From: Sphingomonas sp. SCN 67-18
GTDB lineage: Bacteria; Pseudomonadota; Alphaproteobacteria; Sphingomonadales; Sphingomonadaceae
Direction: 5' to 3'
Length of the DNA stretch: 64,000 bases
Assembly (NCBI RefSeq): GCF_001724715.1
Contig: NZ_MEFG01000013.1
Span: 1 to 64,000, forward strand
This document shows positions 6,984 to 44,389 of this stretch, piece by piece. Below the pieces are notes generated by a model. It saw only the letters and a list, made by a program, of their open reading frames with translations, did no database searches and was not told the origin of the DNA. The position numbers and the translations under genes are program-made. Position 1 is the first letter of the stretch. Each line of letters begins with the position of its first letter.

Positions 6984-7006
6984 GGGGCAATCTCCTTGGC
7001 GGGGAC

Positions 7007-14910: not shown

Positions 14911-14914
14911 GCGA

Positions 14915-17539
<2,625 letters not shown>

Positions 17540-20789: not shown

Positions 20790-20802
20790 ACAGGAGGTGG
20801 CC

Positions 20803-21972
20803 ATGGCCGAAGCCTATATCGTCGAAGCCGTCCGCACCGCCGGGGGCAAGCGCGGAGGGCGGCTGGCCGGCTGGCACCCCGCCGACATGGCGGGCGAGGT
20901 GCTGAACGCGCTGGTCGACCGCACCGGCGTGGACCCGGCCGCGGTGGAGGACGTCATCATGGGCTGCGTCAGCCAGGGCGGAGAGCAGGCATTTCAGGTG
21001 GGCCGGGGCGCGGTGCTCGCGTCCAGGCTGCCCGAGAGCGTGCCCGCCGTCACCATCGACCGGCAGTGCGGATCGTCGCAGCAGGCGATGCAGTTCGCGG
21101 CGCAGGCGGTGATGAGCGGGACGCAGGACATCGTCATCGCGGCGGGCGTGGAATCGATGACCCGGGTGCCGATGGGCTCCACCGGCGTGCTGTTCGCGCA
21201 GGCCGGGCTGGGCAAGGCCAAGAGCCCGCGCCAGGAGGCGCGCTACCCCGGCGTGCAGTTCAGCCAGTTCATGGGCGCGGAGATGATCGCCCGCAAATAC
21301 GGCTTTTCCCGCGACCAGCTCGACGCCTTCGCGCTGGAGAGCCACCGGCGGGCGGCGGCTGCCACCGAGGCCGGGGCGTTCCGTGACGAGATCGTCGCGC
21401 TGGACGTTGAGACCGCCGACGGCCTGGTGCGCCACGACACGGACGAGGGCATCCGCTTCGACGCGACGCTGGAGGGCATCGGATCGGTCAAGCTGCTTTC
21501 CGAGGGCGGGGTGATTTCCGCCGCCAACGCCAGCCAGATCTGCGACGGCGCATCGGGCGTGATGATCGTCAGCGAACGCGCGCTGAAAAGCCATGGGCTG
21601 ACCCCGATGGCGCGCATCCACAACCTGACCGTCACCGGCGGCGATCCGGTGGTGATGCTGGAAGAGCCGCTGTTCGCCACCGACCGCGCCCTGCGGCGCG
21701 CGGGCATGACGATCGCCGACATCGACCTTTACGAGGTGAACGAGGCTTTCGCCCCGGTGCCCCTCGCCTGGCTGAAGCATGTCGGCGGCGATCCGGCCAA
21801 GATCAACGTCCATGGCGGCGCGATCGCGCTCGGCCATCCGCTGGGCGCGAGCGGCACCAAGCTGATGGCGACGCTGGTCAATGCGCTGAAGCGGCAGGGC
21901 AAGCGTTACGGCCTGCAAACCATGTGCGAGGGCGGCGGCCTTGCCAACGTCACCATCATCGAACGGCTTTAA
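20803..21972 (+). CDS. Acetyl-CoA acetyltransferase (thiolase family)
   Basis: A 389-residue thiolase. The acyl-accepting Cys lies in TIDRQCGSSQQA near residue 88, the catalytic His in NVHGGAIALGHPLGASG, and the second Cys in CEGGGLANV near the C-terminus, so all three catalytic residues are present. It should cleave a 3-oxoacyl-CoA to acetyl-CoA and a shortened acyl-CoA, or run in reverse. A perfect AGGAGG ribosome site fixes the ATG at 20803; a GTG at 20797 lies within it. It is first in an operon with an SDR (15 bases later) and a hotdog thioesterase. Confidence 0.92.
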   Translation: MAEAYIVEAVRTAGGKRGGRLAGWHPADMAGEVLNALVDRTGVDPAAVEDVIMGCVSQGGEQAFQVGRGAVLASRLPESVPAVTIDRQCGSSQQAMQFAAQAVMSGTQDIVIAAGVESMTRVPMGSTGVLFAQAGLGKAKSPRQEARYPGVQFSQFMGAEMIARKYGFSRDQLDAFALESHRRAAAATEAGAFRDEIVALDVETADGLVRHDTDEGIRFDATLEGIGSVKLLSEGGVISAANASQICDGASGVMIVSERALKSHGLTPMARIHNLTVTGGDPVVMLEEPLFATDRALRRAGMTIADIDLYEVNEAFAPVPLAWLKHVGGDPAKINVHGGAIALGHPLGASGTKLMATLVNALKRQGKRYGLQTMCEGGGLANVTIIERL

Positions 21973-23274: not shown

Positions 23275-23308
23275 GAACGGCGTCCCCCAGGGGCGCCGTT
23301 CTTTTTTT
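23275..23308 (+). terminator. Rho-independent terminator of the thiolase operon
   Basis: GAACGGCG (23275-23282) pairs with CGCCGTTC (23294-23301), with further C/G pairing inside, and is followed by seven T. It ends exactly at the stop codon of the converging PEP-CTERM gene. Confidence 0.9.
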
Positions 23309-24237
23309 CAGGCGTGGGCGATGCCCGCGCGACGGCGGCGGCGGCGGACCAGCAGCCCGACCAGCCCGAAGCCCAGGATCATCATCAGCCAGCTCGCCGG
23401 TTCCGGCACCGCCATGGCGGACGGCACATGGCTGAAGCTGTTGCCGCGCACCGTGGCGCCCGCGCTCTCGAACGCCTTGCTGACCACGCTGCCGAACACC
23501 GACCCGCCTTCCAGCGAGACGATGGCGTTGGGCGCGAGGATGGACCCCTGCCAGTTGATGCCGTTGGACTGCACGCGCGTCGCGTCGACGAAGTTGAACA
23601 GCACGGAATCGACCGTGAAGTTGCCCAGGTTGAAATTGACGTGGTCCGACACCGAACCGAAGATGTTGATGACCGCGATGTCGCCGGCCTTGCCGACGAA
23701 ATTCAGCTGGTGGAGCGAATCGAACTCCTTGCCGGTCATCGCGAACACGTTCAGCCCCGCCGTGGTGGCGGTGAGCACGCCGGTGCCCCACTGGCTGGTG
23801 AACAGGCCGTTCGTCTCCATGCCCTTGAACAGCGCCGAAGTGCTGGCGGCGGCCGCGTTCATCGCGTCGAAGGCCAGCCCCTTGCCCTGATAGGTGGTGC
23901 CGTTGGGCGTGGCGATGGGGTTGTAGCGCGGGTTCTTGTTCGCCCCGCCATACACCACGTCGCCATAGGAAAGCGTGCTGTTGGCATAGTTCAGATCACC
24001 CAGCACGATCAGGCCCGGCGTGCCGCCATCCGCCTTCGTCAGCCTGGTGCCGATCCGGTCCGCATTGGCGTTGACATTGCCGCCGACGGCGACCTTGCCA
24101 TAGATTTCATTGCCCCCGCGGGTGGAATAATCCCCGCTGGTCTGCACCGAATAATCGGTCAGCTTTTCAGAAGCGTGCGCCGGAAAGGCGAGACTGAGCG
24201 CAAGAAGCGCGGCGGCGGCGGAAGCGATACGCGGCAT
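23308..24237 (-). CDS. Choice-of-anchor A family protein with PEP-CTERM sorting signal
   Basis: A 309-residue exported protein. A signal peptide ends near PAHAS. The central part, from NEIYGKVAVGGNVNANADRIG through LIVLGDLNYANSTLSYGDVVYGG to WQGSILAPNAIVSLEGGSVFGSV, is the choice-of-anchor A domain, a repetitive beta-structured surface module. The C-terminus is a sorting signal: VPEPASWLMMILGFGLVG, then a hydrophobic helix and an Arg cluster. In sphingomonads this PEPxxW signal is cut by an exosortase-type system. The protein is probably delivered to the surface or an extracellular matrix. Confidence 0.88.
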   Translation of the reverse strand: MPRIASAAAALLALSLAFPAHASEKLTDYSVQTSGDYSTRGGNEIYGKVAVGGNVNANADRIGTRLTKADGGTPGLIVLGDLNYANSTLSYGDVVYGGANKNPRYNPIATPNGTTYQGKGLAFDAMNAAAASTSALFKGMETNGLFTSQWGTGVLTATTAGLNVFAMTGKEFDSLHQLNFVGKAGDIAVINIFGSVSDHVNFNLGNFTVDSVLFNFVDATRVQSNGINWQGSILAPNAIVSLEGGSVFGSVVSKAFESAGATVRGNSFSHVPSAMAVPEPASWLMMILGFGLVGLLVRRRRRRAGIAHA

Positions 24238-24341: not shown

Positions 24342-25124
24342 TCAATCCCGAAAGGATGGCGCGCGCTTCTCCATATTGGCCATAACCGCCTCTATCTGGT
24401 TCGGCTGGCGCAGCACGGCGGCCTGCTCGGCGCTTTCGGCGAGCAGTATGGCGTTCTGGTCGAGATCGGCGGCGCCGTTGTAGAGCCGCTTGGCGGCGCG
24501 CACCGCATCGGGGCTTTTCGATGCGATCTCGCGCGCCAGCGCCAGCGCCTCGCCATGCGGATCGACCGACAGGCGCGTGGCGAAGCCGTAGCCGAGCGCA
24601 GCGCCGCCATCGAACTGGCGTCCGCTATAGGTCAATTCACGCACCACATCGTCGCGGGCGAGGCCGCGCATCAGCGCGACGCCGGACATGTCCGGCACCA
24701 GCCCCCAGCGGATCTCCATGATCGACAGGCGGGTGTCGGGCGCGGTGATGCGGATGTCGGCGCCCAGCATGATCTGGAAGCCGCCGCCAAAGGCGACGCC
24801 GTGCACCGCCGCGACCACCGGCACCGGCAGTTCGCGCCAGCCCAGCGCGACATGCTGGTAGAGATTGGCGACGCCGTGGCTGCGCGCCATCAGGTCCGTC
24901 CCCTCGCCCACCGTGGCGAAACTGGCCATGTCCAGCCCGGCGCAAAACGCCCGCCCCTCGCCCGACAGCACCACCGCGCGCAGCCCGGCCATGCCGCGCA
25001 GCGCGGCCAGCGCGCCCTCTATGCCCGCGATCATCGCCGGATCCAGCGCGTTCATCTTGTCGGGCCGGTTCAGCCGCACATCGGCGATCCCGTCTTCGAA
25101 GCGGATCGTCACACGGTCATTCAT
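24342..25124 (-). CDS. Crotonase-family protein with one catalytic Glu replaced
   Basis: A 260-residue enoyl-CoA hydratase/isomerase-fold protein. The oxyanion-hole segment GRAFCAGLDM and the GVAFGGGFQIMLGADIRIT segment are clear. Hydratases need two Glu residues; the one expected in the GGG-x-E position is Gln here (GGGFQ), while the other appears kept in SIMEIRWGLVPD. The enzyme may therefore be an isomerase, hydrolase or other crotonase rather than a hydratase. The ATG at 25124 has a GAGTGGA ribosome site; an ATG at 25139 is in frame. It lies 24 bases past the acyl-CoA ligase and is probably co-transcribed. Confidence 0.85.
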   Translation of the reverse strand: MNDRVTIRFEDGIADVRLNRPDKMNALDPAMIAGIEGALAALRGMAGLRAVVLSGEGRAFCAGLDMASFATVGEGTDLMARSHGVANLYQHVALGWRELPVPVVAAVHGVAFGGGFQIMLGADIRITAPDTRLSIMEIRWGLVPDMSGVALMRGLARDDVVRELTYSGRQFDGGAALGYGFATRLSVDPHGEALALAREIASKSPDAVRAAKRLYNGAADLDQNAILLAESAEQAAVLRQPNQIEAVMANMEKRAPSFRD

Positions 25125-25148: not shown

Positions 25149-26681
25149 TTACACGATCGTCGTTTCGCCCTTGCCCCAATAGCGGTCGCGCAGCAGCCGC
25201 TTGTAGAGCTTGCCGGTGGCGTGGCGCGGCAGTTGCGCGACGAAATCGATCCGCCGGGGCAGCTTTACCGCGGACAGGCCGGCGCGGCAGAAGGCGCTGA
25301 TCTCCGCCGCCAGCGCATCGCCCGCATCGGCCATGGCGACGGGCTGGACCACCGCCACCACCTGTTCCCCCATCTCGTCATGCGGCGCGCCGATGACGGC
25401 CACGTCGGCGACGGCGGGATGGGTGATGATGAGATTCTCTATCTCCTGCGGATAGATGTTCACGCCGCCGGAGATGATCATGAAGCTTTTGCGGTCGGTG
25501 AGGTAGAGATAACCCTCAGCGTCCATCCGCCCGACATCGCCCAGCGTCGTCCAGCCGTGGCGGTTGCGGCTCTCCGCCGTCTTGGCCGGATCGTTATGAT
25601 ATTGGAACTGGCCGGGGCTTTCGAAATAGACCAGCCCTTCCGCGCCGGGCGGTAGCTCATCGCCCGCCTCGTCGCAGATATGCGCGATGCCGTGGACGGC
25701 GCGGCCTACCGATCCTTCATGCGCCAGCCAGTCAGCCGAATTGATCGCGGTCAGGCCGTTGCCTTCCGATCCCGCATAATATTCGAAGATTACCGGCCCC
25801 CACCATGCGATCATCGCGCGCTTCACCGGCACCGGGCAGGGCGCGGCGGCGTGGATCGCCACCTTGAGCGAGGACAGATCATGCGCCGCGCGGGCGTCTT
25901 CAGGCAGCTTCAGCATGCGGACGAAATGGGTGGGCACCCACTGGCTGTGCGTCACCCGGTGGCGCGCGATGGCGGCCAGTGCGGCCTCTGGGTCGAAATG
26001 GGTCATGATGACCACCGTTCCACCCAGCCGCTGGGCGGTCATCGTCCAGCGCAGGGGGGCGGCGTGATAGAGCGGGGCCGGCGACAGATAGATGCTGTCC
26101 GGCCCGAAACCGTAGAGCATCTGCGCCAGCACGGTCAGCCCGTTGGGCGCGTCTATGACCGGCGGATCGGGCAGCGCGAGGCGGATGCCCTTGGGCCGCC
26201 CGGTAGTGCCGGAGGAATAGAGCATGTCCGTGCCCGCGCTCTCATCGGCAATCGGGCTGCTCGGCAGGGCGGCGGCTTCATCCGTCCAGGACCGGAAGGG
26301 CGCGGCCGCGGGGCCGAGCGTGTAGCGGGCCACCGGGGCGCAAAGCGCGCCCGCCACGCCCGCCAGCGCCGGGCAGGTGACCAGCATCCGCGCGCCGCTG
26401 TCCGCCAGGATATAGTCCACCTCCGCCGCCGTCAGTTTCGACGAGACGCAGACGAAATACAGCCCGGCGCGTTGCGCTCCCCAGGCGATCTCCAGAAATT
26501 GCGGGCTGTTCTCCATGAACAGCGCCACCGTGTCGCCAGCCTTCAGCCCGGCCGCGCGAAACAGGTGGGCGGCGCGGTTGGACGCGGCGTCCAGCTGGGC
26601 ATAGCTGACCGTCTCGCCCGTTTCCGCGACGATGATCGCCGCTTTGTCCGGGGTCGTCCGCGCGTGATGGCTGGGGTGCAT
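25149..26681 (-). CDS. Acyl-CoA synthetase (AMP-dependent ligase)
   Basis: A 510-residue member of the ANL adenylating superfamily. The P-loop is YSSGTTGRPKGI, the second motif is FEYYAGSEGNG, the hinge Asp and motif are GDVGRMDAEGYLYLTDRKSFMIISGG, and the C-terminal catalytic Lys is in HATGKLYKR. It should activate a carboxylic acid to its CoA thioester with ATP. The start at MHPSHHARTTPDKAA (26681) gives the usual length; an open extension to 26810 would run into the divergent promoter. The crotonase follows on the same strand and the hotdog pair is divergent. Confidence 0.9.
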   Translation of the reverse strand: MHPSHHARTTPDKAAIIVAETGETVSYAQLDAASNRAAHLFRAAGLKAGDTVALFMENSPQFLEIAWGAQRAGLYFVCVSSKLTAAEVDYILADSGARMLVTCPALAGVAGALCAPVARYTLGPAAAPFRSWTDEAAALPSSPIADESAGTDMLYSSGTTGRPKGIRLALPDPPVIDAPNGLTVLAQMLYGFGPDSIYLSPAPLYHAAPLRWTMTAQRLGGTVVIMTHFDPEAALAAIARHRVTHSQWVPTHFVRMLKLPEDARAAHDLSSLKVAIHAAAPCPVPVKRAMIAWWGPVIFEYYAGSEGNGLTAINSADWLAHEGSVGRAVHGIAHICDEAGDELPPGAEGLVYFESPGQFQYHNDPAKTAESRNRHGWTTLGDVGRMDAEGYLYLTDRKSFMIISGGVNIYPQEIENLIITHPAVADVAVIGAPHDEMGEQVVAVVQPVAMADAGDALAAEISAFCRAGLSAVKLPRRIDFVAQLPRHATGKLYKRLLRDRYWGKGETTIV

Positions 26682-26794: not shown

Positions 26795-27235
26795 ATGGAT
26801 GACGACGCATCCGGGTTCGACCCCCGCCGCTTTGTGAGCGCGATGACGCGCGCGGGCCATAACGGCGCGCTGGGCATCCGCTATGTCGCGCATGGCGAGG
26901 ACTGGGCGGAGCTGGCGCTGGATTACGACCCGCGCATGATCGGCGACCCGGCGAGCGGCGTCATCGCCTCCGGCCCGATCCTGACGTTGATGGACATGGC
27001 GACCAGCATGGGCATCTGGATCCGCTCCAGGCGGTTCCGCGCGCAGGCGACGCTTGACCTGCGCGTTGACTATCTTCGCCCGGCCACGCCGGAACGCACC
27101 GTGATCGGCCGGGGGCAATGCTACCGCATCACCCGGTCGGTCGCGTTCATCCGCGGACAGGCGCATGACGGCAACCCGGACGATCCGATCGCCCATGTCG
27201 CCGGCACCTATATGTTCATAGACACGGGCCAATGA
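26795..27235 (+). CDS. PaaI-type hotdog thioesterase (first of a pair)
   Basis: A 146-residue single hotdog domain of the PaaI/YbgC class. The segment GVIASGPILTLMDMATSMGIW carries the conserved helix that normally includes an acidic residue near GG(A/P); here it is SGPILTLMD. The TLDLRVDYLRPAT strand is typical. The probable role is hydrolysis of an acyl-CoA ester during the catabolism encoded around it. The stop overlaps the next ATG by four bases, and the partner is also a hotdog protein, suggesting a heteromeric enzyme. Confidence 0.85.
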   Translation: MDDDASGFDPRRFVSAMTRAGHNGALGIRYVAHGEDWAELALDYDPRMIGDPASGVIASGPILTLMDMATSMGIWIRSRRFRAQATLDLRVDYLRPATPERTVIGRGQCYRITRSVAFIRGQAHDGNPDDPIAHVAGTYMFIDTGQ

Positions 27236-27615
27236 TCGCCCTGCCCCCCTATGCCGACTTGCTGGGCCTGCGTATCGACGGCGCGGACGATGGCGCGCCG
27301 GTGCTGCTGATGCCCTTTCATGACGATGTGATCGGGCGGCCCGGATTCCTGCACGGCGGCGCGATCGGCGGGCTGCTGGAGATGGCCGCCATCGCCGCGC
27401 TGCAATGCGCCTTTTCCGATGGAGACCGGCCGCGCATCAAGCCGATCACGGTGACGGTGGACTATATGCGCGGCGGCCGCGACCATGACACCCGCGCGGT
27501 GGGTGCGATCACGCGGCTGGGCAACCGCATCGCCAATATCGAGGCGACCGCCTGGCAGGACGACCGCGCCCGCCCCATCGCCGTCGCGCGGATGAACATC
27601 CTGCTGGTGCGCTGA
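27232..27615 (+). CDS. PaaI-type hotdog thioesterase (second of a pair)
   Basis: A 127-residue hotdog domain with the complete PaaI helix FLHGGAIGGLLEMAAIAAL, including HGG and the acidic residue used in catalysis, followed by PITVTVDYMRGG. Its ATG lies inside the end of the previous gene (ATGA overlap). The tandem arrangement of two different hotdog domains recalls heteromeric thioesterases and dehydratases, though each could act alone. No terminator is obvious before the converging SDR. Confidence 0.85.
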   Translation: MIALPPYADLLGLRIDGADDGAPVLLMPFHDDVIGRPGFLHGGAIGGLLEMAAIAALQCAFSDGDRPRIKPITVTVDYMRGGRDHDTRAVGAITRLGNRIANIEATAWQDDRARPIAVARMNILLVR

Positions 27616-27650: not shown

Positions 27651-28439
27651 CTATGCGTCGATGCTGACGCCGACATGCGCGTGGACCAGGCCGCCGTCCA
27701 CCGTGATGGTGTCGCCGATCACATAATCGCCCGCCCGCGACGCCAGGTAGATGGCCGCCGCCGCCATGTCTTCCTCAGCGCCGATCCGCCCGGCGGGAAT
27801 CGCCTTGGCGACCGCATCGCCATGGTCGCGCGCCGCGCGGTTCATGTCCGACGCAAAGGCGCCGGGGGCGATGGCGGTGACGTTGATATGATCGCGCACC
27901 AGCCGCGCCGCCAGCCGCTTGGTGAGGTAGATGAGCGCGGATTTGGACGCGTGATAGCTATATGTATCCCACGGGTTCAGCCGCATCCCGTCTATCGAGG
28001 CGATGTTGATCACCTTGGCGGGGCGGCCGGCGCTGCCCGCCGCCTTCAGCTGGCCGTGCAGCGCCTGCAGCAGGAAGAAGGGCGATTTCAGGTTGAGGTC
28101 CATCACCTTGTCCCAGCCTTTTTCCGGAAACACCTCGAACGGCTCGCCCCACGCGACGCCGGCATTGTTGACGAGGATGTCCAGCGCGGGCTCCCGCTCC
28201 GCATAGGCGGCGGCGAGCGCCCGGCACCCGGCCACGGTCGACACGTCCTGCGGCAGGGCGATGCAGTTCGGCCCGAGTTCCTTCGCCGTGGCGAAGCAGG
28301 CATCGGCCTTGCGTGACGAGATATAGACCTTCGCGCCCTGGGCGACGAAGCCGGCGGCGATCCATTTGCCGATATTCTTCGACCCGCCGGTGACGAGCGC
28401 GGTGCGCCCTTCGAGCGAGAACAGCTTGCTGGTATCCAT
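27651..28439 (-). CDS. SDR-family oxidoreductase
   Basis: A 262-residue classical SDR: LVTGGSKNIGKWIAAGF (TGxxxxIG variant), NNAGVAWGEPF, Ser in NIASIDGMRLN and Tyr-Lys in YSYHASKSA. The C-terminus YVIGDTITVDGGLVHAH is the standard SDR end. An Arg after the second strand (ISSRKADAC) suggests NADP. The sequence resembles the RhlG/gluconate-dehydrogenase-like group that reduces 3-oxoacyl compounds, but the substrate is not certain. GGAGA precedes the ATG. It lies 21 bases past the acyl-CoA dehydrogenase gene in the same direction, so the two form an operon. Confidence 0.88.
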   Translation of the reverse strand: MDTSKLFSLEGRTALVTGGSKNIGKWIAAGFVAQGAKVYISSRKADACFATAKELGPNCIALPQDVSTVAGCRALAAAYAEREPALDILVNNAGVAWGEPFEVFPEKGWDKVMDLNLKSPFFLLQALHGQLKAAGSAGRPAKVINIASIDGMRLNPWDTYSYHASKSALIYLTKRLAARLVRDHINVTAIAPGAFASDMNRAARDHGDAVAKAIPAGRIGAEEDMAAAAIYLASRAGDYVIGDTITVDGGLVHAHVGVSIDA

Positions 28440-28460: not shown

Positions 28461-29603
28461 TCAGCCGCCCTGTTTGATGGTTTCGCGCGCGATGATGAGC
28501 TGCTGGATCTGGCTTGTCCCTTCATAGATGCGGAACAGCCGCACGTCGCGGTAGAGCCGTTCGATGCCGTAATCCGCGATATAGCCAGCCCCGCCGAATA
28601 TCTGCACCGCCCGGTCGGCGACGCGGCCCACCATCTCGCTGGCGAAATATTTGGCGGCGGCCGCCTCCAGCGTGATCGGATCACCCGCATCCTTGCGCCG
28701 GGCCGCGTCGAGCATCAGCGCCTGCGCGGCCATGGCCTCCGTCTTGGAATCCGCGATCATCGCCTGGATGAGCTGGAAAGCGGAAATCGGCTGGCCGAAC
28801 TGCACCCGCCCGCCGGCATAGGCGACGCAATCGGCGATCAGCCGTCCGGCGACGCCGACGCAGACCGCCGCGATGTGCAGCCGCCCCCGGTCAAGCACCC
28901 GCATCGCCACCTTGAACCCCTCGCCCTCCGCGCCGAGCATGTTGGCGGCGGGCACCGGCACGTCGTCCAGCACCACATCCGCCACCTTGGCGCCTTTCTG
29001 GCCCATCTTGCGTTCCGGTTCGCCGATGCTGACCCCCGGCAGGTCGGCCGGCATCAGAAAGGCGGAGACGCCGCGCGCGCCCTCGCCGCCGGTGCGCGCC
29101 ATCACCGTGAACAGCGAGGCGCGGTCCGCATTGGTGATGAAGCGTTTCGTGCCCGTCAGCCGATAGACGTCGCCGTCGCGCACCGCGCGGGTTTTCACCG
29201 CGCCGCTGTCCGACCCCACATCCGGCTCGGTCAGCGCAAAGCTGGTGACGATCTCTCCGCTGGCGATGCGCGGCAGCCATTCGGCCTTTTGCGCGGGGGT
29301 GCCCGCCATCACCAGCCCCTGGCTGCCGATGCCGACATTGGTGCCGAAGGCGGAGCGAAAGGCGGGCGTGGTGCGGCCCAGCTCCATCGCCACGCGGCAT
29401 TCCTCCTCCATGGTGAGGCCGATGCCGCCATATTCCGGGTCGATCGACAGGCCGAACAGGCCCATCGCCCGCATTTCGGCGATCACCGCGTCCGGCACCG
29501 AATCGTCGGCCTCCACCTGCGCCTCCAGCGGGCGCAGCCTTTCCGTTACGTAACGGCGGATGGTGGTGATCAACGCATCGAAAGTTTCGCTGTCCAAAGC
29601 CAT
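28461..29603 (-). CDS. Acyl-CoA dehydrogenase (short/medium-chain type)
   Basis: A 380-residue FAD enzyme with all family motifs: FALTEPDVGSDSGAV, KRFITNADRASLF, FGQPISAFQLIQAMIAD and GGAGYIADYGIERLYRDVRLFRIYEGTSQIQ. The catalytic Glu is the one in IYEGT, as in medium-chain dehydrogenases, so the enzyme should be active. It oxidises an acyl-CoA of unknown chain. It is the first gene of an operon with the SDR downstream. A 14-base palindrome CCGTTACGTAACGG lies within its first codons (29543-29556). Confidence 0.92.
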   Translation of the reverse strand: MALDSETFDALITTIRRYVTERLRPLEAQVEADDSVPDAVIAEMRAMGLFGLSIDPEYGGIGLTMEEECRVAMELGRTTPAFRSAFGTNVGIGSQGLVMAGTPAQKAEWLPRIASGEIVTSFALTEPDVGSDSGAVKTRAVRDGDVYRLTGTKRFITNADRASLFTVMARTGGEGARGVSAFLMPADLPGVSIGEPERKMGQKGAKVADVVLDDVPVPAANMLGAEGEGFKVAMRVLDRGRLHIAAVCVGVAGRLIADCVAYAGGRVQFGQPISAFQLIQAMIADSKTEAMAAQALMLDAARRKDAGDPITLEAAAAKYFASEMVGRVADRAVQIFGGAGYIADYGIERLYRDVRLFRIYEGTSQIQQLIIARETIKQGG

Positions 29604-29781: not shown

Positions 29782-30612
29782 ATGCGGTTCGACGGCAAGA
29801 CGGCAGTGGTGACGGGCGGCGCATCCGGCATCGGCAAGGCCACGGCGCTGCGCTTCGCGAGCGAGGGCGCGCGCGTGTTCATCGGCGATATCGACGAGGC
29901 GGGCGGCGCGGCGCTGGCCGATGCGTCCGGCGGGGCGATCAGCTTCCTGCGCACCGACGTGACTTCGGAAACGAACATCAAGGCGCTGCTCGCCGCCGCA
30001 GACGCGGATTCGGGCGTCGACATCCTGTTCAACAATGCGGGCGCCGGCGGCGCGCGCGAGACGATCGACGAGATCAGCGCCGAGGCGTGGGACGCCACCA
30101 TGGCGCTGCTGCTGCGCTCCGTTGCGCTGGGCATCCGCCATGCCGCACCGTTGATGGCGAAGCGCGGCGGCGGTGCCATCGTCAACACGGCTTCCGTCGC
30201 CGCAACGCAGACCGGGGCCGCGCCCACCGCCTATTCGGTGGCGAAGGCGGGCGTGCTGCACCTGACCAAGCTCGCCGCGGCGGACCTCGCCAAATCGCGC
30301 ATCCGGGTGAACGCGGTCTGCCCCGGCTTCATCACCACCAACATCTTCACCTCCGCCGTGGGACTGGAAGGCGAGAAGAAGGCGATGGCGGACCAGATGA
30401 TCGCCGCGCTGGCCGCCACCACCCAGCCGGTCGCCCGCGCCGGGAAAGGCGAGGACATTGCCGCCGCCGTCGCCTTTCTGGCGAGCGAGGACGCGTCCTT
30501 CATCACCGGCACCCATATATTGGTGGACGGCGGGATGCAGATCGGCCCCAAGCATAGCTGGGACCCGCAGACGCCGGGCCTGTTCGAGGCGCTGGGCGCG
30601 CTGGCGCAATAG
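29782..30612 (+). CDS. SDR-family oxidoreductase
   Basis: A 276-residue SDR: VVTGGASGIGKATALRFA, an Asp after the second strand (IGDIDEAGG) pointing to NAD, NNAGAGG, Ser in NTASVAATQTG and Tyr-Lys in YSVAKAG, ending with ITGTHILVDGGMQIGP. The extra 25 residues at the C-terminus after the usual DGG motif are modestly unusual. It is followed nine bases later by a GPH-family transporter, so the pair probably handles one imported compound. A GGAG-type ribosome site (GGAGAGACGAGG) precedes the ATG. Confidence 0.88.
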   Translation: MRFDGKTAVVTGGASGIGKATALRFASEGARVFIGDIDEAGGAALADASGGAISFLRTDVTSETNIKALLAAADADSGVDILFNNAGAGGARETIDEISAEAWDATMALLLRSVALGIRHAAPLMAKRGGGAIVNTASVAATQTGAAPTAYSVAKAGVLHLTKLAAADLAKSRIRVNAVCPGFITTNIFTSAVGLEGEKKAMADQMIAALAATTQPVARAGKGEDIAAAVAFLASEDASFITGTHILVDGGMQIGPKHSWDPQTPGLFEALGALAQ

Positions 30613-30621
30613 GCGCGCCGG

Positions 30622-32049
30622 ATGACGGCCATTCCGCTCCGCACCAAGCTGGCCTACGGCTTCGGCGCGGTCGCCTATGGCATCAAGGACAACGGTTTTT
30701 CCGTCTTCCTGCTGCTGTTCTACAATCAGGTGATCGGCCTGCCCGCCGACCAGGTGGGGCTGGCGATCATGATCGCGCTGCTCGTCGATGCGCTGATCGA
30801 CCCGGTGGTCGGGCATCTTTCGGACCAGACGCACAGCCGATGGGGCCGCCGCCACCCGTGGCTCTATGCCTCCGCCATCCCCATCGCGCTGGTGTGGATC
30901 GCGCTGTGGAACCCGCCGGCCGCCAGCCAGGGCGCGGTCTTCGCCTGGCTGATCGTCGTCTCCATCCTCGTGCGCGCGGTGCTTTCCTGCTACGAAGTGC
31001 CGTCACTAGCGCTCGCGCCCGAAATCACCCGCGATTATCATGAGCGCACGCTGGTGCTGCGCTACCGCTTCCTGTTCGGCTGGGCGGGCGGGCTGTTGAT
31101 GCTGGTCCTCGCCTTCGGAGTGCTGCTGACGCCGGGGCCGGGCTATCCGGTGGGGCAGCTCAACCCGGCGGGCTATCATCGCTTCGCCGCCGTGGGCGCG
31201 GTGCTGATGCTGGTGGCGGTGCTGATCTCCGCCATCGGCACCCACCGGCTGCTCGCCCGCCTGCCCGCCAGCGCGCCGGAACGGCTGCCGCTGGGCGCCA
31301 CATTCCGCGCGATCGGCCACACCCTCGCCAACCGGCCGTTCCTCATTTTGATGGCGGCCGGCATCTTCGCCTATGCCAATCAGGGCATCACCTTCGCCCT
31401 CGCCAATTACCTGCTGCTCTATGTCTGGGAATTTCCCAAGGCGGCGTTCGTCATATACGCGATCACCCTGTTCGGCGGCGTGGTGATCGCCTTTCTCTGC
31501 GTTCCCGCGCTTTCGCGCCTGTTGGGCAAGAAGGATGCCGCCGCGCTGTGCGCCGTGCTGGCGATGGTGCTGGGCACGCTGCCCTACTGGCTGCGCGTCG
31601 CCGGGCTGTTCCCGGCCAACGGCACGCCGCTGGCGATGCCGCTGTTCCTGCTGCTGGTCGGCCTTTCCACCGGCGCGGGCGTGTGCGTGATGATCCTCAC
31701 CACGTCGATGATGGCGGACGTGACCGAGGCATCGGAGGCGCGCACCGGCAAGCGCAATGAGGGGCTGTTCTTCGCCGGTTATTTCTTCATGCAGAAATGC
31801 GTGACCGGCATCGGCATCTTCCTGTCCGGATCGCTGCTGGCGTGGATCGGCTTTCCCGCGGACGCGCAGCCCGGCGGCGTGGCGACGGAGGTGATTCACC
31901 GGCTGGCGCTGTCCTTCGCGGCGCTCACCCTGCTGTTCGGGCTGGTCGGCGCATGGTGCTACACCCGTTTCCCCTTTGGTCGCGAAGACCATGAACGGCG
32001 ATTGCGCCAGCTTGCCGTAACGGCGGCGGCGGAAGAACGGGAAATATGA
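30622..32049 (+). CDS. MFS transporter, glycoside-pentoside-hexuronide (GPH) cation symporter type
   Basis: A 475-residue membrane protein with about twelve hydrophobic segments. The opening LAYGFGAVAYGIKDNGFSVFLLLFYNQVIGL and the loop DPVVGHLSDQTHSRWGRRHPW are the GPH/MelB signatures. Members usually symport sugars, but many in sphingomonad catabolic clusters have unknown substrates. It follows the SDR by nine bases and precedes the ACAD10/11-type operon, so its substrate may be an acid or hydroxy compound degraded by the neighbours; that is inference. Confidence 0.88.
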   Translation: MTAIPLRTKLAYGFGAVAYGIKDNGFSVFLLLFYNQVIGLPADQVGLAIMIALLVDALIDPVVGHLSDQTHSRWGRRHPWLYASAIPIALVWIALWNPPAASQGAVFAWLIVVSILVRAVLSCYEVPSLALAPEITRDYHERTLVLRYRFLFGWAGGLLMLVLAFGVLLTPGPGYPVGQLNPAGYHRFAAVGAVLMLVAVLISAIGTHRLLARLPASAPERLPLGATFRAIGHTLANRPFLILMAAGIFAYANQGITFALANYLLLYVWEFPKAAFVIYAITLFGGVVIAFLCVPALSRLLGKKDAAALCAVLAMVLGTLPYWLRVAGLFPANGTPLAMPLFLLLVGLSTGAGVCVMILTTSMMADVTEASEARTGKRNEGLFFAGYFFMQKCVTGIGIFLSGSLLAWIGFPADAQPGGVATEVIHRLALSFAALTLLFGLVGAWCYTRFPFGREDHERRLRQLAVTAAAEEREI

Positions 32050-32125
32050 GGAATTCCGCGCGTTCCGGGCTGGAATTTCGCCCCGCCGCCTGACACAATC
32101 GGCCCCATAGACGGAGTCTCGCACC

Positions 32126-33403
32126 ATGGATTTCAACCCCACCGAACGGCAGAGCTACTGGCGCGACCGCGTGCGCGCCTTCATCGAGGCGGAGGTTCGG
32201 CCGGGCATGGACGCCTACCGCGCCCAGCAGGCGGAGGGCGGGCGCTGGAAAGTGCTGCCGGTGATCGAGCAGCTGAAGGCGAAGGCGAAGGCGGCGGGCA
32301 TCTGGAACCTGTTCATGCCCCCTTCCTCCGGCCACGCGCCGGTGGATGACAGCTTCGCCTTCGACGGCCCCGGCCTGACCAACCTGGAATATGCGCTCTG
32401 CGCCGAGGAGATGGGGCGGATCGAATGGGCGTCGGAGGTGTTCAACTGCGCCGCGCCGGACACCGGCAACATGGAGGTGCTGCACCGCTACGGCACCCGC
32501 GCGCAGAAGGACCGCTGGCTGAAGCCGCTGATGGAGGGGGAGATCCGTTCCGCCTTCCTGATGACCGAGCCAGCCGTCGCCTCGTCCGACGCGACCAACA
32601 TCGAGACGCGGATCGAGCGGGACGGCGACGATTATGTCGTCAACGGCCGCAAATGGTGGTCTTCCGGCGCGGGCGACCCGCGCTGCGCCGTCACCATATT
32701 GATGGGCAAGACGGATTTCGGCGCGCAGCGCCACGCCCAGCAATCGATGATCCTGGTGCCCATGGACGCGCCGGGCATCACCGTGCTCCGCCACCTGCCG
32801 GTATTCGGTTATGACGACGCGCCGCACGGCCATATGGAGATCGAGCTGAAGGACGTGCGCGTGCCCGCCGATGCCATATTGCTGGGCGAAGGGCGCGGTT
32901 TCGAGATCGCGCAGGGGCGGCTGGGGCCGGGCCGCATCCACCATTGCATGCGCACCATCGGCGCGGCGGAGGAGGCGCTCGCCAAGATGAGCCGGCGGCT
33001 GCTGTCCCGCGTCGCCTTCGGCAAGGCCATCGCCGAACATAGCGTTTGGGAACAGCGCGTAGCCGAGGCGCGGATCGACATTGAGATGACCCGGCTGCTC
33101 TGCCTCAAGGCCGCCGACATGATGGACAAGGCGGGCAACAAGGCCGCGCAGGCCGAGATCGCGATGATCAAGGTCGCCGCGCCGCGCATGGCGCTGAGGA
33201 TCATCGACGACGCCATCCAGGCGCATGGCGGCGCCGGGGTGAGCGAGGATTTCGGGCTGGCCAAGGCCTATGCCGGCATCCGCACCCTGCGGCTGGCGGA
33301 CGGGCCGGACGAGGTGCACAACCGCGCCGTCGCGCGGATCGAGTTCGGCAAGTATGGCGGGCGCGACGCGATTGCCGCCGCACGGGCCGCGTCCGGGCGG
33401 TGA
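32126..33403 (+). CDS. ACAD10/11-like acyl-CoA dehydrogenase
   Basis: A 425-residue acyl-CoA dehydrogenase homologue. It is longer than ordinary members and ends with [20 protein letters not shown], the motif of the ACAD10/ACAD11 and LvaC branch, where the usual YEGT catalytic Glu is absent. FAD-related segments are [27 protein letters not shown] and [20 protein letters not shown]. Known members act on phosphorylated 4-hydroxyacyl-CoA made by an APH-fold kinase, and such a kinase is encoded two genes downstream. It is the first gene of a five-gene operon; the stop overlaps the GTG start of the alcohol dehydrogenase. Confidence 0.88.
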
Positions 33404-34482
33404 AGGCCGCCATCCTCTCCCGGCCCGGCGATCCCCTCACCATCGAGGATGTCCGGATTGCCGACCCCGCCCCGCGCGAGGTGCTGATCCGCACGGCGGC
33501 CGTTGGCGTCTGCCGGTCCGACCTGCATTTCGTCGACGGGGCCTATCCCCACCCGATGCCGACCATTCCGGGGCATGAAGCCGCCGGCATCGTCGAGGCG
33601 GTGGGCAGCGAAGTGACCATGGTGAAGCCGGGCGATGCCGTCGTCACCTGCCTCAGCGCCTTTTGCGGCCAGTGCGAACAATGCGTTACCGGCCATCTTT
33701 CGCTCTGCACCGACGCCGGGCTGAAACGCGCCAGGGGCCAGCCGCCGCGCCTGATGCTGGGCGATACGCCCGTCCACCAGATGCTGAACCTCAGCGCCTA
33801 TGCGGAACAGATGCTGGTCCACGAACATGCCTGCGTCGCCATCGATCCGGCGATGCCGCTGGACCGCGCCTGCGTGATCGGCTGCGCGGTGACGACGGGC
33901 GCTGGCGCGATCTTCCATGCCGCCGCCATCTCGCCGGGCGAAAATGTGGCGGTGGTCGGCTGCGGCGGCATCGGGCTGGCGGCGGTCAATGCCGCGCGGA
34001 TCGCCGGGGCGGGGCGGATCGTGGCGATAGACCCGGTGCCGGAGAAGCGCGCGCTCGCGCTGAAGCTGGGCGCGACGGACGTTATCGACGCCGCATCCGA
34101 AACGGCGGCGGCGGAGGTGGTGGAACTGACCCGGGGCGGCGTCCACCACGCCATCGAGGCGGTGGGGCGGCCGGCATCGGGCGATCTCGCCGTGGCGACG
34201 CTGAGGCGCGGCGGCACAGCGACCATATTGGGCATGATGCCGCTGGACCATAAGGTGGGGCTGTCCGCGCTCGACCTGCTTGCCAGCAAGAAGCTGCAGG
34301 GCGCGCTGATGGGCGGCAACCGCTTCCCGGTGGACATTCCCCGGCTGGTCGATTTTTACATGCGCGGCCTGCTGGACCTGAACAGCATCATCGCCGAGCG
34401 GATTCCGCTGGAACGGATCAACGATGCGTTCGCGGCGCTGCGCAAGGGCGATTCCACCCGGTCCGTGGTGACATTCGCATGA
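33400..34482 (+). CDS. Zinc-dependent alcohol dehydrogenase
   Basis: A 360-residue medium-chain dehydrogenase. Catalytic-zinc ligands appear in [15 protein letters not shown] and IGCAVTTG, and the structural zinc cluster in [15 protein letters not shown]. The NAD-binding motif is [12 protein letters not shown], followed by an acidic residue (AIDPV), so NAD is expected. It resembles the class III/aryl-alcohol group. The start is GTG, overlapping the preceding TGA, and its own TGA overlaps the kinase ATG, so it is translationally coupled on both sides. It may oxidise an alcohol substrate into the pathway. Confidence 0.9.
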
Positions 34483-35549
34483 CCATCGACGCCCAATCCA
34501 CCATGGTCGGCACCACCGAGGTGCCGGAGAAGGACCGGCTGGACGAGGCGCGGCTGACCGCATGGATGGCGGCCAATGTGGCGGGCTTCGCCGGGCCGAT
34601 CCGCCTGTCCAAGTTCAAGGGCGGCCAATCCAACCCCACCTATCGCATCGACACGCCGGGCGCGGCCTATGTGCTGCGCCGCAAGCCCTTTGGCCCGCTG
34701 CTGCCGTCCGCCCATGCCGTGGACCGCGAATATCGGGTGATCGCGGCGCTGCACCCCACCGGATTTCCCGTCGCCCGGCCCTATGGGCTGTGCACGGACG
34801 AAGGCGTGATCGGATCGATGTTCTACGTCATGGGCCTGGCGGAGGGCCGCAACCTCTGGGACGGATCGCTGCCCGGCTTCGCGCCCGCCGAGCGGCGCGG
34901 CATCTATGAGGCGATGATCGACACCATGGCGGCGCTCCACGCCGTCGATCCGGCGGCGGTCGGCCTTGGCGATTACGGCAAGCCCGGCAATTATTTCGAG
35001 CGGCAGGTGGCGCGCTGGACCAAGCAATATCGCGCGGCTGAAACGGAGACGATCCCTGAGGTGGACCGGCTGATCGACTGGCTGCCGCGCACCCTGCCCC
35101 CGCAGGACCGCAGCACCATTGTCCACGGCGATTACCGCATCGACAACCTGATCTTTTCGGCGGACGCGCCAAAAGTGGCGGCGGTGCTCGACTGGGAGCT
35201 TTCCACGCTCGGCGATCCGCTGGCCGATTTCTCGTATCTGCTGATGAACTGGGTGACGCAGCCGGAGGGCCGATCCGGCATTGCCGGGCTTGACCTGGAC
35301 GCGCTGGGCATCCCCACGCTGGACGCGGCGGTGGCGCGTTATTGCGCCGCGACCGGGCGGAGCGGGCTGCCGGACCTCAACTGGTATTTCAGCTATAATC
35401 TGTTCCGGCTGACCGGCATCGTCCAGGGCATCAAGAAACGGGTGATCGACGGCACCGCATCGAGCGCGCAGGCGGCGGCGATGGCGGAACGGGTGCCGCA
35501 TCTGGCGGCAGCGAGCTGGCGCTTCGCGGTGCTGGCGGGCGCGGAATAG
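34479..35549 (+). CDS. APH-fold phosphotransferase (ACAD10/11, LvaA-like kinase)
   Basis: A 356-residue aminoglycoside-phosphotransferase-fold kinase. The nucleotide loop is [12 protein letters not shown], the invariant Lys-type residue sits in YVLRRKP, the catalytic loop is [12 protein letters not shown] and the metal-binding motif is [15 protein letters not shown]. This is the variant fused to, or paired with, ACAD10/11-type dehydrogenases in animals and bacteria, where it phosphorylates the 4-hydroxyl of 4-hydroxyacyl-CoA. It lies in one operon with such a dehydrogenase. Antibiotic modification is unlikely in this setting. Confidence 0.88.
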
Positions 35550-35563
35550 GAAGGCGGAACGAT

Positions 35564-36361
35564 ATGAGGCTGGACGGCAAGAGCGCGATCGTCACCGGGG
35601 CGGGATCCGGCATCGGCCAGGCGACGGCGCTGCGTTTCGCGGCGGAAGGCGCGCGGCTGGTGATCGGGGACATCAGCGCGGGCGTGGACGAAACGGCGGC
35701 GATGATCACGGAGGCCGGCGGCACCGCCCATGCGATGCGGATCGACGCGGGCAGCGAGGAGGATGTGCAGGCGCTGGTCGGCGCGGCGGTGGCGCGGCAC
35801 GGCGGGCTGGACGTCGCCTATGCCAATGCCGGCGTTTCCGGCGGGCTGACCGGCATTTTCGACCATAGCGTGGCGGAATGGGAGGCGATCCTCAGGACCA
35901 ACCTGATCGGCCCCTTCCTCGTCATCAAACATGCAGCGCCGGAAATGATGAAGCGCGGCAAGGGGTCGATCATCTGCACCGCCAGCGTCGCGGGGCTGCG
36001 CTCAGGCGCGGGGTGCCCGGCCTATTCCGCGTCGAAGGCGGGCGTCATCAATCTGGTGATGACGGCGGCGCAGCAGCTTTCGGCCACAAATGTGCGCGTC
36101 AACGCCATCTGCCCCGGGCTGATCCAGACCGGCATGACCCAGCGCGCCTTCGACTATGCGGCGGAAAAGGGCGTCACTGACCGCATCGGCCGCCTCAACC
36201 CGCTGCGCCGCGCCGGCCAGCCGGACGAGATCGCCAACATGGCGCTGTTCCTGGCGTCCGACGAAGCCAGCTATGTCAACGGCCAGGCCATCGCCGTCGA
36301 TGGCGGCCTCTCTTCATCTCACCCGGTCACGCGACAGGAAACCGGCAAGACCGCCGCCTGA
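35564..36361 (+). CDS. SDR-family oxidoreductase
   Basis: A 265-residue [21 protein letters not shown], Asp after the second strand (IGDISAG), a catalytic Ser in [11 protein letters not shown] and Tyr-Lys in YSASKAG, ending [18 protein letters not shown]. The usual NNAG is read as YANAGVSGG. It is fourth in the operon, 14 bases after the kinase and 28 before the FadB-like gene. A role as NAD-dependent hydroxyacyl-CoA dehydrogenase of the pathway is plausible; the FadB-like protein has its own dehydrogenase domain, so the SDR may act on a different hydroxyl position. Confidence 0.88.
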
Positions 36362-36389
36362 CGCGCCCCACCATCCCGAAAGGACCGCA

Positions 36390-38414
36390 ATGTCTGTCAT
36401 CACCACCGAACGCCATGGCGACGTGCTCGTCATCATCTCCAACAACCCGCCGGTCAACGCGCTGGGCGCGGCGGTGCGCCAGGGGCTGGACGCGGGAATC
36501 AAGGAGGCGCTGGCCGACGACGCGGTGAAGGCGGTGGTCATCCGCTGCGACGGGCGCACCTTCTTCGCGGGCGCGGACATCACTGAATTCACCAAGCCGC
36601 CGGTGCCGCCGATGCTGCCGGAGGTGGTGAACACCATCGAAGCCTGCACCAAGCCGGTCGTCGCCGCCATCCACGGCACCGCGCTGGGCGGCGGGCTGGA
36701 GACGGCGCTCGGCTGTCATTACCGCATCGCCGTGCCGTCGGCGAAGCTGGGCGTGCCGGAAGTGAAGCTGGGCCTGCTGCCGGGCGCGGGCGGCACGCAG
36801 CGGCTGCCGCGCATCGCGGGCATCGAGGCGGCGGTGGAGATGTGCGCCACCGGCACGCCCATTCCCGCCGCAAGGGCGCTGGCGATCGGCCTGGTCGACC
36901 GGCTGGCCGGCGAGGACAGCCTGGCGGACGAGGCCATCGCCTTCGCCCGCGAGATGATCGCCAGCGGCCCGCGCCCCTCGCGCGCGCAGCCGGTGAAGGG
37001 CGATCCCGCCGCGATCCCCGCCTTTGCGGAGGCGAACGCCCGCCGCTTCAAGGGGTTTGACGCGCCCGCCGCCAACATCGCCTGCGTCGAGGCGGCGACG
37101 CGGCTGCCCTTCGACGAAGGCATCGCCTTCGAGCAGCAGGAATTCATGAAGCTGATGTTCGGCGCGCAATCCGCCGCCCAGCGCCACATTTTCTTCGCAG
37201 AGCGACAGGCCGGCAAGATCGACGGCATCGGCGACGATGTGAAGCCACGGCCGATCCGCAAGGTCGGCATGATCGGCGCCGGCACCATGGGCGGCGGCAT
37301 TTCGATGAATTTCCTTTCCGCCGGCATTCCCGTCACCATCGTCGAGCAGGAGCAGGCGGCGCTTGACCGTGGCGTGGGCGTGATCCGCAAGAATTACGAG
37401 GCCACCGCCGCCAAGGGCCGGTTGAAGCCGGAGCAGGTGGAAGCGGCCATGGGCCTGCTCACCCCGACGCTGAAGCTGGAGGACCTCGCCGATTGCGACC
37501 TCGTCATCGAGGCGATCTTCGAGAACATGGACGTGAAGAAGGATGTCTTTTCCCGGCTGGACAAGATCGCCAAGCCGGGCGCGATCCTTGCGTCCAACAC
37601 CAGCTATCTGAACATAGACGAGATCGCCGCCGTCACCGGCCGGGCGCAGGACGTGCTGGGGATGCACTTCTTTTCCCCTGCCAACGTCATGAAGCTGCTG
37701 GAGGTGGTGCGCGGCGCAAAGACCGCGCCGGACGTGCTGCTGACCGCGATGGGCGTGGCCAAGACGATCGGCAAGGTCGCGGTGGTCGCCGGCGTGTGCG
37801 ACGGCTTTATCGGCAACCGCATGCTGATGCCCCGGCAGGTGGAGGCGATGAAGCTGCTGATGGAAGGCGCCACGCCCGCCCAGGTGGACAAGGTGCACAC
37901 CGATTTCGGCATGCCGATGGGCCCGTTCCAGATGAGCGACCTGGCCGGCGTGGATATTGGCTGGCACCGGGACCCGACGCGGATCGAGAATGTCCGCGAC
38001 GCGCTGTGCGCGGTCGGCCGCTGGGGGCAGAAGACCGGCAAGGGCTTTTACGATTATGACGACAAGCGCCGCCCCAGCCCGTCCGCCGAGGTGCAGGCGA
38101 TCATCGAGGATTTCGCGGCCAAGACAGGCGCTGTGAAACGCGCGATCAGCGACGAGGAGATCGTCGAGCGCACGCTCTACCCGATGGTCAACGAAGGCGC
38201 GCTGATCCTGGCCGAAGGCATGGCCCAGCGTGCGTCCGACATCGATGTGGTATGGGTCTATGGCTATGGCTGGCCGGTCTATCGCGGCGGCCCGATGTTC
38301 TGGGCGGACCTGGAGGGCAGCGACAAGATCGTCGCCGGGCTGGAAAAGCACGGCTTCAAGGTTGCGCCGCTGCTGAAGGAAAAGGCGGAGACGAAGGGCC
38401 GTTTCAACCGCTGA
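36390..38414 (+). CDS. FadB-like enoyl-CoA hydratase/3-hydroxyacyl-CoA dehydrogenase
   Basis: A 674-residue multifunctional beta-oxidation enzyme. The N-terminal crotonase domain (1-190) keeps both catalytic Glu residues ([14 protein letters not shown] and [19 protein letters not shown]). The dehydrogenase part starts near residue 290 with [15 protein letters not shown], has [11 protein letters not shown] and the catalytic His in [17 protein letters not shown], and ends with two helical dimerisation domains. It converts 2-enoyl-CoA to 3-oxoacyl-CoA with NAD. AAAGGA lies upstream of the ATG. It ends the operon; its 3' end overlaps the converging MOSC gene by 11 bases. Confidence 0.93.
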
Positions 38415-43720: not shown

Positions 43721-44389
43721 TCAGGCGGCAACGGTTCGCGCGGTGCGGCGGGTGCGGCGCATCGCCCCGCCGACCAGGCCGAAGCCGCCGATCATCATCG
43801 CCCAGGCGGCGGGTTCCGGAACCGCGTTGAACCGCACTTCCGACAGGCCGGCCGAATAGGTGGTGTAGATGGTGCCGGTGGCATAGTTGTTGAGGATGTC
43901 GATCTGCACGAACCGCGCCTCGACCCCGTTCAGACCGAAAATCTGCGCGGCGGCCGGCGTGCCTTCGCCGCGCGCCATGGTGCCGGTGAACACTTCTGTG
44001 AACGCCACGCCGTCCAGCGAGGTGAGGATGCGGAAATCCTTCACGCCCCGGTCTATGGTGTTGATGACGCCGGGGATCAGCCGACCGTCGGCATAGTTGA
44101 ACTGCCAGATGTCGGCGCTGGCGAGCTTGTAGGCGGCACCCAGATCGAAGGTCAGCAGGCCCTGCTGCGCGCCCGGCCCCTGTTCCGTCATCCACATATT
44201 GCCGAAATAGCTGTCATGCAGATCGCCGGTCATGCCGCTGCCGTTGATCAGATTTTCCACCTTGTAGAAGCCGCCATGGGCCTGGGTGCTGGAGGCGACG
44301 ACCGACACCGGCGTGATCTGCGCGGCCTGGGCAGGCATGGCGACCGCAGCCGCCGCAAGACTGGCGGCGACGCAAAAGGACTTAAGCAT
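43721..44389 (-). CDS. Discoidin-like PEPxxWA-CTERM protein
   Basis: A 222-residue exported protein. After a signal peptide (cleavage near AQAAQ), residues 30-190 look like an F5/8 type C (galactose-binding-like) beta-sandwich: LTFDLGAAYKLASADIWQF, VKDFRILTSLDG and RFVQIDILNNY. The C-terminus has the perfect sphingomonad sorting signal VPEPAAWAMMIGGFGLVG followed by an Arg cluster. It probably binds a carbohydrate at the surface. It is the second such protein in the window. AGGGG lies upstream of the ATG. Confidence 0.88.
   Translation of the reverse strand: MLKSFCVAASLAAAAVAMPAQAAQITPVSVVASSTQAHGGFYKVENLINGSGMTGDLHDSYFGNMWMTEQGPGAQQGLLTFDLGAAYKLASADIWQFNYADGRLIPGVINTIDRGVKDFRILTSLDGVAFTEVFTGTMARGEGTPAAAQIFGLNGVEARFVQIDILNNYATGTIYTTYSAGLSEVRFNAVPEPAAWAMMIGGFGLVGGAMRRTRRTARTVAA

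Follow-up and report, generated by a model that had tools for sequence, protein, structure and literature searches.

Mammalian ACAD10 and ACAD11, whose functions were assigned in papers of 2024 and 2025, combine two fused domains. The kinase yields a 4-phosphoacyl-coenzyme A (4-phosphoacyl-CoA), ACAD10 giving about fourfold more product from the R than from the S form, and the acyl-CoA dehydrogenase yields a 2-trans-enoyl-CoA with no external electron acceptor, the likeliest route being oxidation, elimination of phosphate and return of the electrons (PMC11342911, PMC12440821). The enzyme pair is of a known kind in bacteria as well (PMC6692424, citing Rand et al.), and the bacterial literature that we found on such enzymes centres on levulinate. 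The lva cluster (lvaABCDEFG), which serves levulinate catabolism in Pseudomonas putida, carries, in this order, lvaA (kinase), lvaB, lvaC (dehydrogenase), lvaD and lvaE, and Burkholderia pseudomallei orthologues of LvaA and LvaC stood in for the ACAD10 domains in vitro (PMC11342911). Here, we analysed a stretch of 64,000 nucleotides (nt) of Sphingomonas sp. SCN 67-18 (contig NZ_MEFG01000013.1, positions 1 to 64,000, forward strand; hereafter the window), in which an operon encodes stand-alone relatives of both ACAD10/11 domains. Judged from sequence comparison, the operon is very probably a catabolic unit that feeds 4-hydroxyacyl-CoAs into beta-oxidation. The reaction is already known; the cluster, which joins the two enzymes to fixed, as yet unassigned partners across many sphingomonad genera, is a new form of this known kind.

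An ACAD10/11-type dehydrogenase and kinase

An earlier note on this DNA had assigned five genes to the operon, and all five were found where it had placed them, with Pfam domains as expected:
32126-33403, forward strand: ACAD10/11-type (LvaC-type) dehydrogenase, Pfam Acyl-CoA_dh
33400-34482, forward strand: Zn-dependent alcohol dehydrogenase, Pfam ADH
34479-35549, forward strand: aminoglycoside phosphotransferase (APH)-fold kinase of the ACAD11/3dxp group, proposed 4-hydroxyacyl-CoA kinase, Pfam APH (192 bits)
35564-36361, forward strand: short-chain dehydrogenase/reductase (SDR) c, candidate LvaD-like 4-oxo/4-hydroxyacyl-CoA reductase, Pfam SDR
36390-38414, forward strand: FadB-like enoyl-CoA hydratase/3-hydroxyacyl-CoA dehydrogenase, Pfam ECH and 3HCDH

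The start of the FadB-like gene follows the codon-usage gene caller; the listed open reading frame (ORF) begins at 36156.

Compared with PDB sequences, the dehydrogenase scored 445 bits to ACAD11 (8v3u), 445 bits to 4hr3 and 439 bits to 2wbi, against 139 bits to the best acyl-CoA dehydrogenase outside the ACAD11 group. It is 58.0% identical to the ACAD11 domain (381 columns) and 23–30% identical to four other dehydrogenases, of which two are ordinary enzymes of the window and two are heteromeric-type enzymes of a related locus, L037. Alignment places R265, H273, R276 and D392 of the window protein at R626, H634, R637 and D753 of mouse ACAD11 (numbers of PMC12440821; those counted from the PDB chain are one lower), with H273-C274-M275-R276 forming an HCMR motif. 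D753 is the catalytic base of ACAD11; R626, H634 and R637 touch the 4-phospho group in modelling, and their nonconservative substitution hits dehydrogenase activity hardest, with accumulation of the phospho-intermediate (PMC12440821). Equivalents of all four residues occur in 98/98 ACAD10/11-type ORFs, comprising the window protein and 97 ORFs from 100 loci that score >300 bits to it (L141, L142 and L143 gave none). Since the 97 were picked by similarity to the window protein, such uniformity is expected within the family, and the informative part of the test is the contrast with the controls: all four comparison dehydrogenases carry other residues at all four positions. Bit scores, residues and a 41-row tree thus bear out the ACAD10/11-type assignment made in the earlier note.

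The kinase matches 3dxp (413 bits, 54.8% identity), the ACAD11 kinase domain (249 bits, 38.8%) and 9o56 (197 bits). The motifs HGDYRIDN and LDWE can be read in its ORF, and D218, N223 and R175 are the equivalents of D220, N225 and R176. The catalytic Asp, the catalytic Asn and the equivalent of the CoA-site R176 are present in 84/84 kinases. An Arg beside the alpha-C Glu is present in 83/84, with a gap in the remaining row; because the chain count gives 83, this Arg is matched to the published R86 by description only.

In a quick kinase tree of 33 rows, two groups stand on long branches: the window kinase falls with ACAD11 and 3dxp, and the second group consists of 9o56 and five kinases of families f30, f37, f48 and f64. 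The dehydrogenase tree agrees with the ACAD11 grouping. It also places the dehydrogenases that partner these five kinases (L126, L127, L132, L136 and L138) in one eight-member branch with 4hr3 (Shimodaira–Hasegawa-like approximate likelihood ratio test, 98). The L135 dehydrogenase stands beside that branch (support 86), though the L135 kinase lies in the ACAD11 group, so that the two trees agree only broadly, and exact placements are unsure on such long branches. Genomes of both kinase groups have ACAD10/11-type dehydrogenases; 9o56 is named 'aminoglycoside phosphotransferase' in the PDB.

APH-fold genes lie at four places in the Sphingomonas sp. SCN 67-18 genome, the window kinase among them, and at E 1e-40 the window kinase alone is retained. 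The others were considered as a possible second module and set aside; those on contigs C29 and C43 stand in seemingly housekeeping contexts, judged by eye from the sequence, and the one on C15 is the weakest match. Plasmid records with relatives of the kinase (E <= 1e-30) number 243, including 64 from Pseudosulfitobacter and 31 from Rhodococcus, and the function may therefore travel.

Co-occurrence of kinase and dehydrogenase

We searched 59 related genomes for the dehydrogenase (E <= 1e-100), the kinase (E <= 1e-40) and, as a control, an ordinary acyl-CoA dehydrogenase of the window, ACAD_b (E <= 1e-70). The dehydrogenase was found in 44/59 and the kinase in 42/59: both genes in 42 genomes, the dehydrogenase alone in two (G046, in 800 contigs, and G058, 85% complete), the kinase alone in none and neither in 15. 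Presence of the kinase was thus discordant with the ACAD10/11-type dehydrogenase in 2/59 genomes, compared with 11/59 for ACAD_b. Across 249 genomes of the phylum (dehydrogenase E <= 1e-90, kinase E <= 1e-30, scoring limited to the best 7 or 8 candidates in each genome), 67 have the dehydrogenase and 69 the kinase; 67 have both, two the kinase only (G070, G283), none the dehydrogenase only and 180 neither, with Fisher p-values that ignore shared ancestry. Of the 83 kinase genes in this set, 49 lie within 6 kb of an ACAD10/11-type dehydrogenase; kinase and dehydrogenase genes are thus frequently separated while both are retained in the same genome.

We also inspected 20 hand-picked regions of other genomes. 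A kinase ORF is present in 12 of them, none of which belongs to the order Sphingomonadales. An SDR (blastp to the query set) lies about 3 kb or less from the kinase in 10/12, the regions without one being L133 and L134. Kinase, dehydrogenase and SDR therefore recur together, a pattern that the window fits. In L126-L130, from genomes of another class, the dehydrogenase stands in a stretch without the kinase, which is found elsewhere in those genomes. Among ten proteins scanned, a histidine phosphatase was found near the kinase or the dehydrogenase in at least four regions:
L132, 3660-4367: histidine phosphatase
L136, 7795-8484: histidine phosphatase
L137, 6575-7252: histidine phosphatase
L138, 3668-4357: histidine phosphatase

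The levulinate cluster of Pseudomonas citronellolis likewise holds a histidine phosphatase, along with an SDR 67% identical to LvaD, and lacks lvaB (PMC6692424). By analogy with what that paper suggests for P. citronellolis, the phosphatases listed here might act on the 4-phospho intermediate. In two genomes of family f36 (L133, 3173-3892; L134, 3296-4000), a Crp-family regulator lies directly 5' of kinase and dehydrogenase.

Several observations weigh against the proposed 4-hydroxyacyl-CoA role. In the phylum set, 34/83 kinase genes have no such dehydrogenase within 6 kb. Co-occurrence counted by genome ignores shared ancestry, and this set has no control gene. Among the relatives, ACAD_b also associates with the ACAD10/11-type dehydrogenase (in 43 of the 51 genomes that have ACAD_b, p = 1.3e-4). 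The alcohol dehydrogenase is present in just 16/42 kinase-bearing relatives, at <50% identity in two of the 16, and because of this variability its role may be peripheral. Finally, LvaA, LvaC and LvaD were likened to the window proteins from their published descriptions.

Operon layout and comparison with lva

The dehydrogenase and alcohol dehydrogenase genes are joined by a 4-nt overlap, GTGA, and the alcohol dehydrogenase and kinase genes by another, ATGA. The five genes share one strand. The operon probably starts before 32126, the start given in the earlier note: an SDR gene and a transporter gene of that strand precede the dehydrogenase, spaced by 9 nt (SDR_b to transporter) and 76 nt (transporter to dehydrogenase), so that the transcription unit is likely 29782-38414, with seven genes. 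Promoter and terminator scans gave results no better than shuffles (1 versus a mean of 1.1; 4 versus a mean of 4.6). The further genes considered are:
29782-30612, forward strand: SDR_b, probable first operon gene by same-strand spacing
30622-32049, forward strand: GPH/MelB-like MFS_2 symporter, candidate uptake protein
28461-29603, reverse strand: ACAD_b, ordinary acyl-CoA dehydrogenase, divergent, used as the control
27651-28439, reverse strand: SDR_a, conserved divergent neighbour
27232-27615, forward strand: hotdog (4HBT) thioesterase family protein
26795-27235, forward strand: hotdog (4HBT) thioesterase family protein
25149-26681, reverse strand: AMP-binding acyl-CoA ligase, candidate activating enzyme
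24342-25124, reverse strand: enoyl-CoA hydratase/isomerase family protein
20797-21972, forward strand: thiolase, candidate for the last cycle step, membership unsure

SDR_a and ACAD_b point away from the operon, with 178 nt between. The ligase, the enoyl-CoA hydratase family gene, the two thioesterases and the thiolase do not figure in the earlier note. The thiolase lies >10 kb from the dehydrogenase; related loci carry 10-kb flanks, and its conservation is outside their reach.

Window proteins and mammalian ACAD10/ACAD11 have the two domains and the diagnostic residues in common. In the mammalian proteins, however, the domains are fused, whereas in the window each has a gene of its own, the alcohol dehydrogenase gene stands between the two, and the operon holds other catabolic enzymes. 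The B. pseudomallei orthologues are likewise a stand-alone kinase and dehydrogenase, whose closeness to the window proteins we assume. With the lva cluster of P. putida and its P. citronellolis counterpart, as they are described, the window shares kinase and dehydrogenase; SDRs in the operon and a CoA ligase near it are candidate counterparts of LvaD and LvaE. Order and partners differ, in line with the earlier note: the dehydrogenase comes first, the alcohol dehydrogenase is interposed before the kinase, the unit includes the FadB-like gene and the GPH transporter, and no small gene stands between kinase and dehydrogenase. The note had further pointed to the lack of an adjacent LvaB or levulinyl-CoA synthetase. 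On the opposite strand, 3.1 kb before the likely start of the operon, there is in fact a CoA ligase, which might act on levulinate; for LvaB no aimed sequence search was made. The LvaB argument carries little weight in any case, because the P. citronellolis cluster has no lvaB homologue (PMC6692424) and because the kinase domain of ACAD10 could be exchanged in vitro for a B. pseudomallei orthologue (PMC11342911).

A conserved sphingomonad neighbourhood with a second dehydrogenase pair

We compared the window with the best 80 of 592 related loci, which are therefore not a random sample; the titles of 74 name a sphingomonad taxon and those of six only Proteobacteria, Pseudomonadota or Alphaproteobacteria. 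The loci were scanned with 11 proteins of the window neighbourhood and then with seven proteins of L063/L037 and eight of the window. Tallies refer to the 59 full-length loci (>21 kb) at identity cut-offs of 40–75% that we chose. L143, for which the codon-usage caller trained on the high-GC window returned nearly no genes, was excluded from neighbourhood and residue counts. The order dehydrogenase, alcohol dehydrogenase, kinase is kept in 55/59 loci. SDR_a is present in 54/59, the transporter in 52/59, SDR_b in 32/59, SDR_c in 22/59 and a further SDR in 20/59; a serine esterase (PF00144) is found in 17/59, the FadB-like gene in 16/59 and ACAD_b in 3/59. The CoA ligase of the window recurs in 2/80 loci (two in the 59-locus tally), as does the enoyl-CoA hydratase family gene at 24342-25124 (2/80). 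One full-length locus, L108, has no detectable kinase. In L059 (Blastomonas marina, 3643-8260), a local rearrangement has kinase and alcohol dehydrogenase beyond the dehydrogenase pair described below and on the opposite strand. In L037, SDR_c and the esterase are separated by an aldo/keto reductase (14260-15207) that is not listed at this place in most related loci; it may serve the pathway as a further carbonyl reductase.

An adjacent pair of other dehydrogenases was found on the opposite strand in 58/59 full-length loci, and in 54/59 it lies upstream of the module at a distance of no more than 6 kb. Its alpha-like member scores 160 bits to Tcur3483 and 149 bits to 4x28 in L037 (next PDB match 99) and 142 and 131 bits in L063 (next 91). 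The beta-like member is ambiguous, with 131 bits to both 4kto and 6wy8_A and 130 to the next. We take 6wy8/6wy9, for which the PDB gives only Tcur3481 and Tcur3483, to be a heterotetramer with a steroid role, and 4x28 to be ChsE4-ChsE5. The likeness to heteromeric steroid-type dehydrogenases (Tcur3481/Tcur3483; 4x28) thus concerns the alpha-like neighbour in relatives, outside the window, and the beta-like partner there is not clearly of this type. Taken together, the conserved pair suggests that the module partners with dehydrogenases akin to the steroid-type heteromeric enzymes. We did not find a fixed sphingomonad cluster with this dehydrogenase pair described in the open-licence full-text literature searched. 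Steroid degradation was considered as the explanation and rejected: the main text of PMC12882949, on bile-salt clusters of Caenibius tardaugens, contains neither 'phosphotransferase' nor 'kinase', and no link was found there.

Neither the window neighbourhood nor L039 has the pair. In the same genome as the window, contig C27 carries in a row, from 113163 to about 116700, an esterase (57%), an alpha-like gene (75%) and a beta-like gene (65%), corresponding to 9143-12709 of L123 (G000:C27:104000-122000). Esterase and alpha-like gene are each split across two frames, by either decay or assembly error.

Across the phylum set, 20 genomes carry the alpha-like gene (E <= 1e-130), and 20/20 of them have kinase and dehydrogenase; in G250, from another class, it stands beside the module and three SDRs (L137). 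Among the relatives, 30/31 carriers of the alpha-like gene have the dehydrogenase, the exception being G022 (67% complete), and 14 genomes have the dehydrogenase without the alpha-like gene. At least 19/31 carriers have it within 8 kb of the module, counted on a partial list of kinase places. Because the control ACAD_b associates with the dehydrogenase too, this linkage is stronger evidence for the pair than co-occurrence.

Proposed pathway and substrate

In the pathway that we propose, a carboxylic acid would be taken up, perhaps by the GPH-type transporter, and converted to its CoA ester by a ligase, possibly that at 25149-26681. The SDRs and the Zn-dependent alcohol dehydrogenase would set the oxidation state or stereochemistry of carbon 4, much as LvaD acts on levulinyl-CoA. 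The alcohol dehydrogenase might oxidise an alcohol precursor or interconvert 4-hydroxy and 4-oxo forms, and together with an SDR it could convert S to R via the 4-oxo compound. From homology and residues, the kinase (34479-35549) is predicted to phosphorylate the 4-hydroxyl with ATP and the flavoenzyme (32126-33403) to strip the phosphate by a flavin adenine dinucleotide 'rebound', yielding the 2-enoyl-CoA. The FadB-like enzyme would then hydrate and oxidise this product, and a thiolase would cleave it. The 4-hydroxyacyl-CoA route of the earlier note is firmly backed by family placement, diagnostic residues and the near-perfect co-occurrence of kinase and dehydrogenase, while its two side arguments, the lack of LvaB and that of a CoA synthetase, are weaker than the note has them. 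For a new substrate, the conserved heteromeric-type pair is a better reason than the lack of LvaB; the note could not show the pair because this genome has it on another contig.

Which acids enter the route is a separate matter: taken by themselves, kinase and dehydrogenase are just as compatible with simple 4-hydroxy acids, and it is the heteromeric-type pair and the esterase that speak for a substrate that is bulky or a lactone. One possibility, less likely than not, is that the sphingomonad cluster is dedicated to a 4-hydroxy or 4-oxo acid, or its gamma-lactone, that is bulky or branched or carries a ring (for example of terpenoid or sterol origin). There, the esterase found in some members would open the lactone, the centre at carbon 4 would be set or inverted by SDR and alcohol dehydrogenase, the kinase and the ACAD10/11-type enzyme would shift the functional group into beta-oxidation, and the pair would handle the remaining bulky chain. 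If so, the module serves natural-product catabolism, beyond levulinate and fatty acids. An equivalent of lva for small substrates (levulinate, 4-hydroxyvalerate or gamma-valerolactone), in which an SDR would take the part of LvaD and the ligase that of LvaE, seems unlikely. Kinase, dehydrogenase, SDR and CoA ligase do correspond to the lva genes that PMC6692424 and PMC9399607 describe, the ligase is nearby in the window, and L140, from another genome of the class, has a compact dehydrogenase-kinase-SDR arrangement followed by an AMP-binding ligase. The dehydrogenase pair, at least two SDRs, the GPH transporter and sometimes an esterase are, however, more than a C5 acid should need, and the ligase is all but absent from the related loci.

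The unit might instead clear away 4-hydroxy acids produced by lipid peroxidation, or by beta-oxidation when a fatty acid carries a hydroxyl at an even-numbered carbon. PMC12440821 discusses such origins, and this role would suit the breadth of the dehydrogenase among the relatives; we regard it as unlikely, as transporter, alcohol dehydrogenase and SDRs in the operon resemble catabolism of an external compound. It is highly improbable that the kinase is an antibiotic or small-molecule phosphotransferase beside an ordinary dehydrogenase in an incidental neighbourhood. Such a role would agree with the APH fold and with plasmid relatives partly annotated as aminoglycoside phosphotransferase, but the dehydrogenase carries residues found only in ACAD10/11 and every one of the 67 phylum genomes that have it also carries the kinase. 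The kinase, moreover, falls below all curated resistance-family cut-offs, with 24.7 bits at best versus 205 for APH(3') and 19.3 versus 550 for Mph(A), and a resistance role was rejected on these scores. For the preferred 4-hydroxyacyl-CoA route, natural sources and the range of 4-hydroxy acids become testable by simple knock-outs.

Other genes in the window

Two genes for PEP-CTERM proteins lie in the window. An ice-binding-like adhesive domain (PF20597) occurs in one of the proteins and an F5/8 type C domain in the other:
23308-24237, reverse strand: PEP-CTERM protein
43721-44389, reverse strand: PEP-CTERM protein

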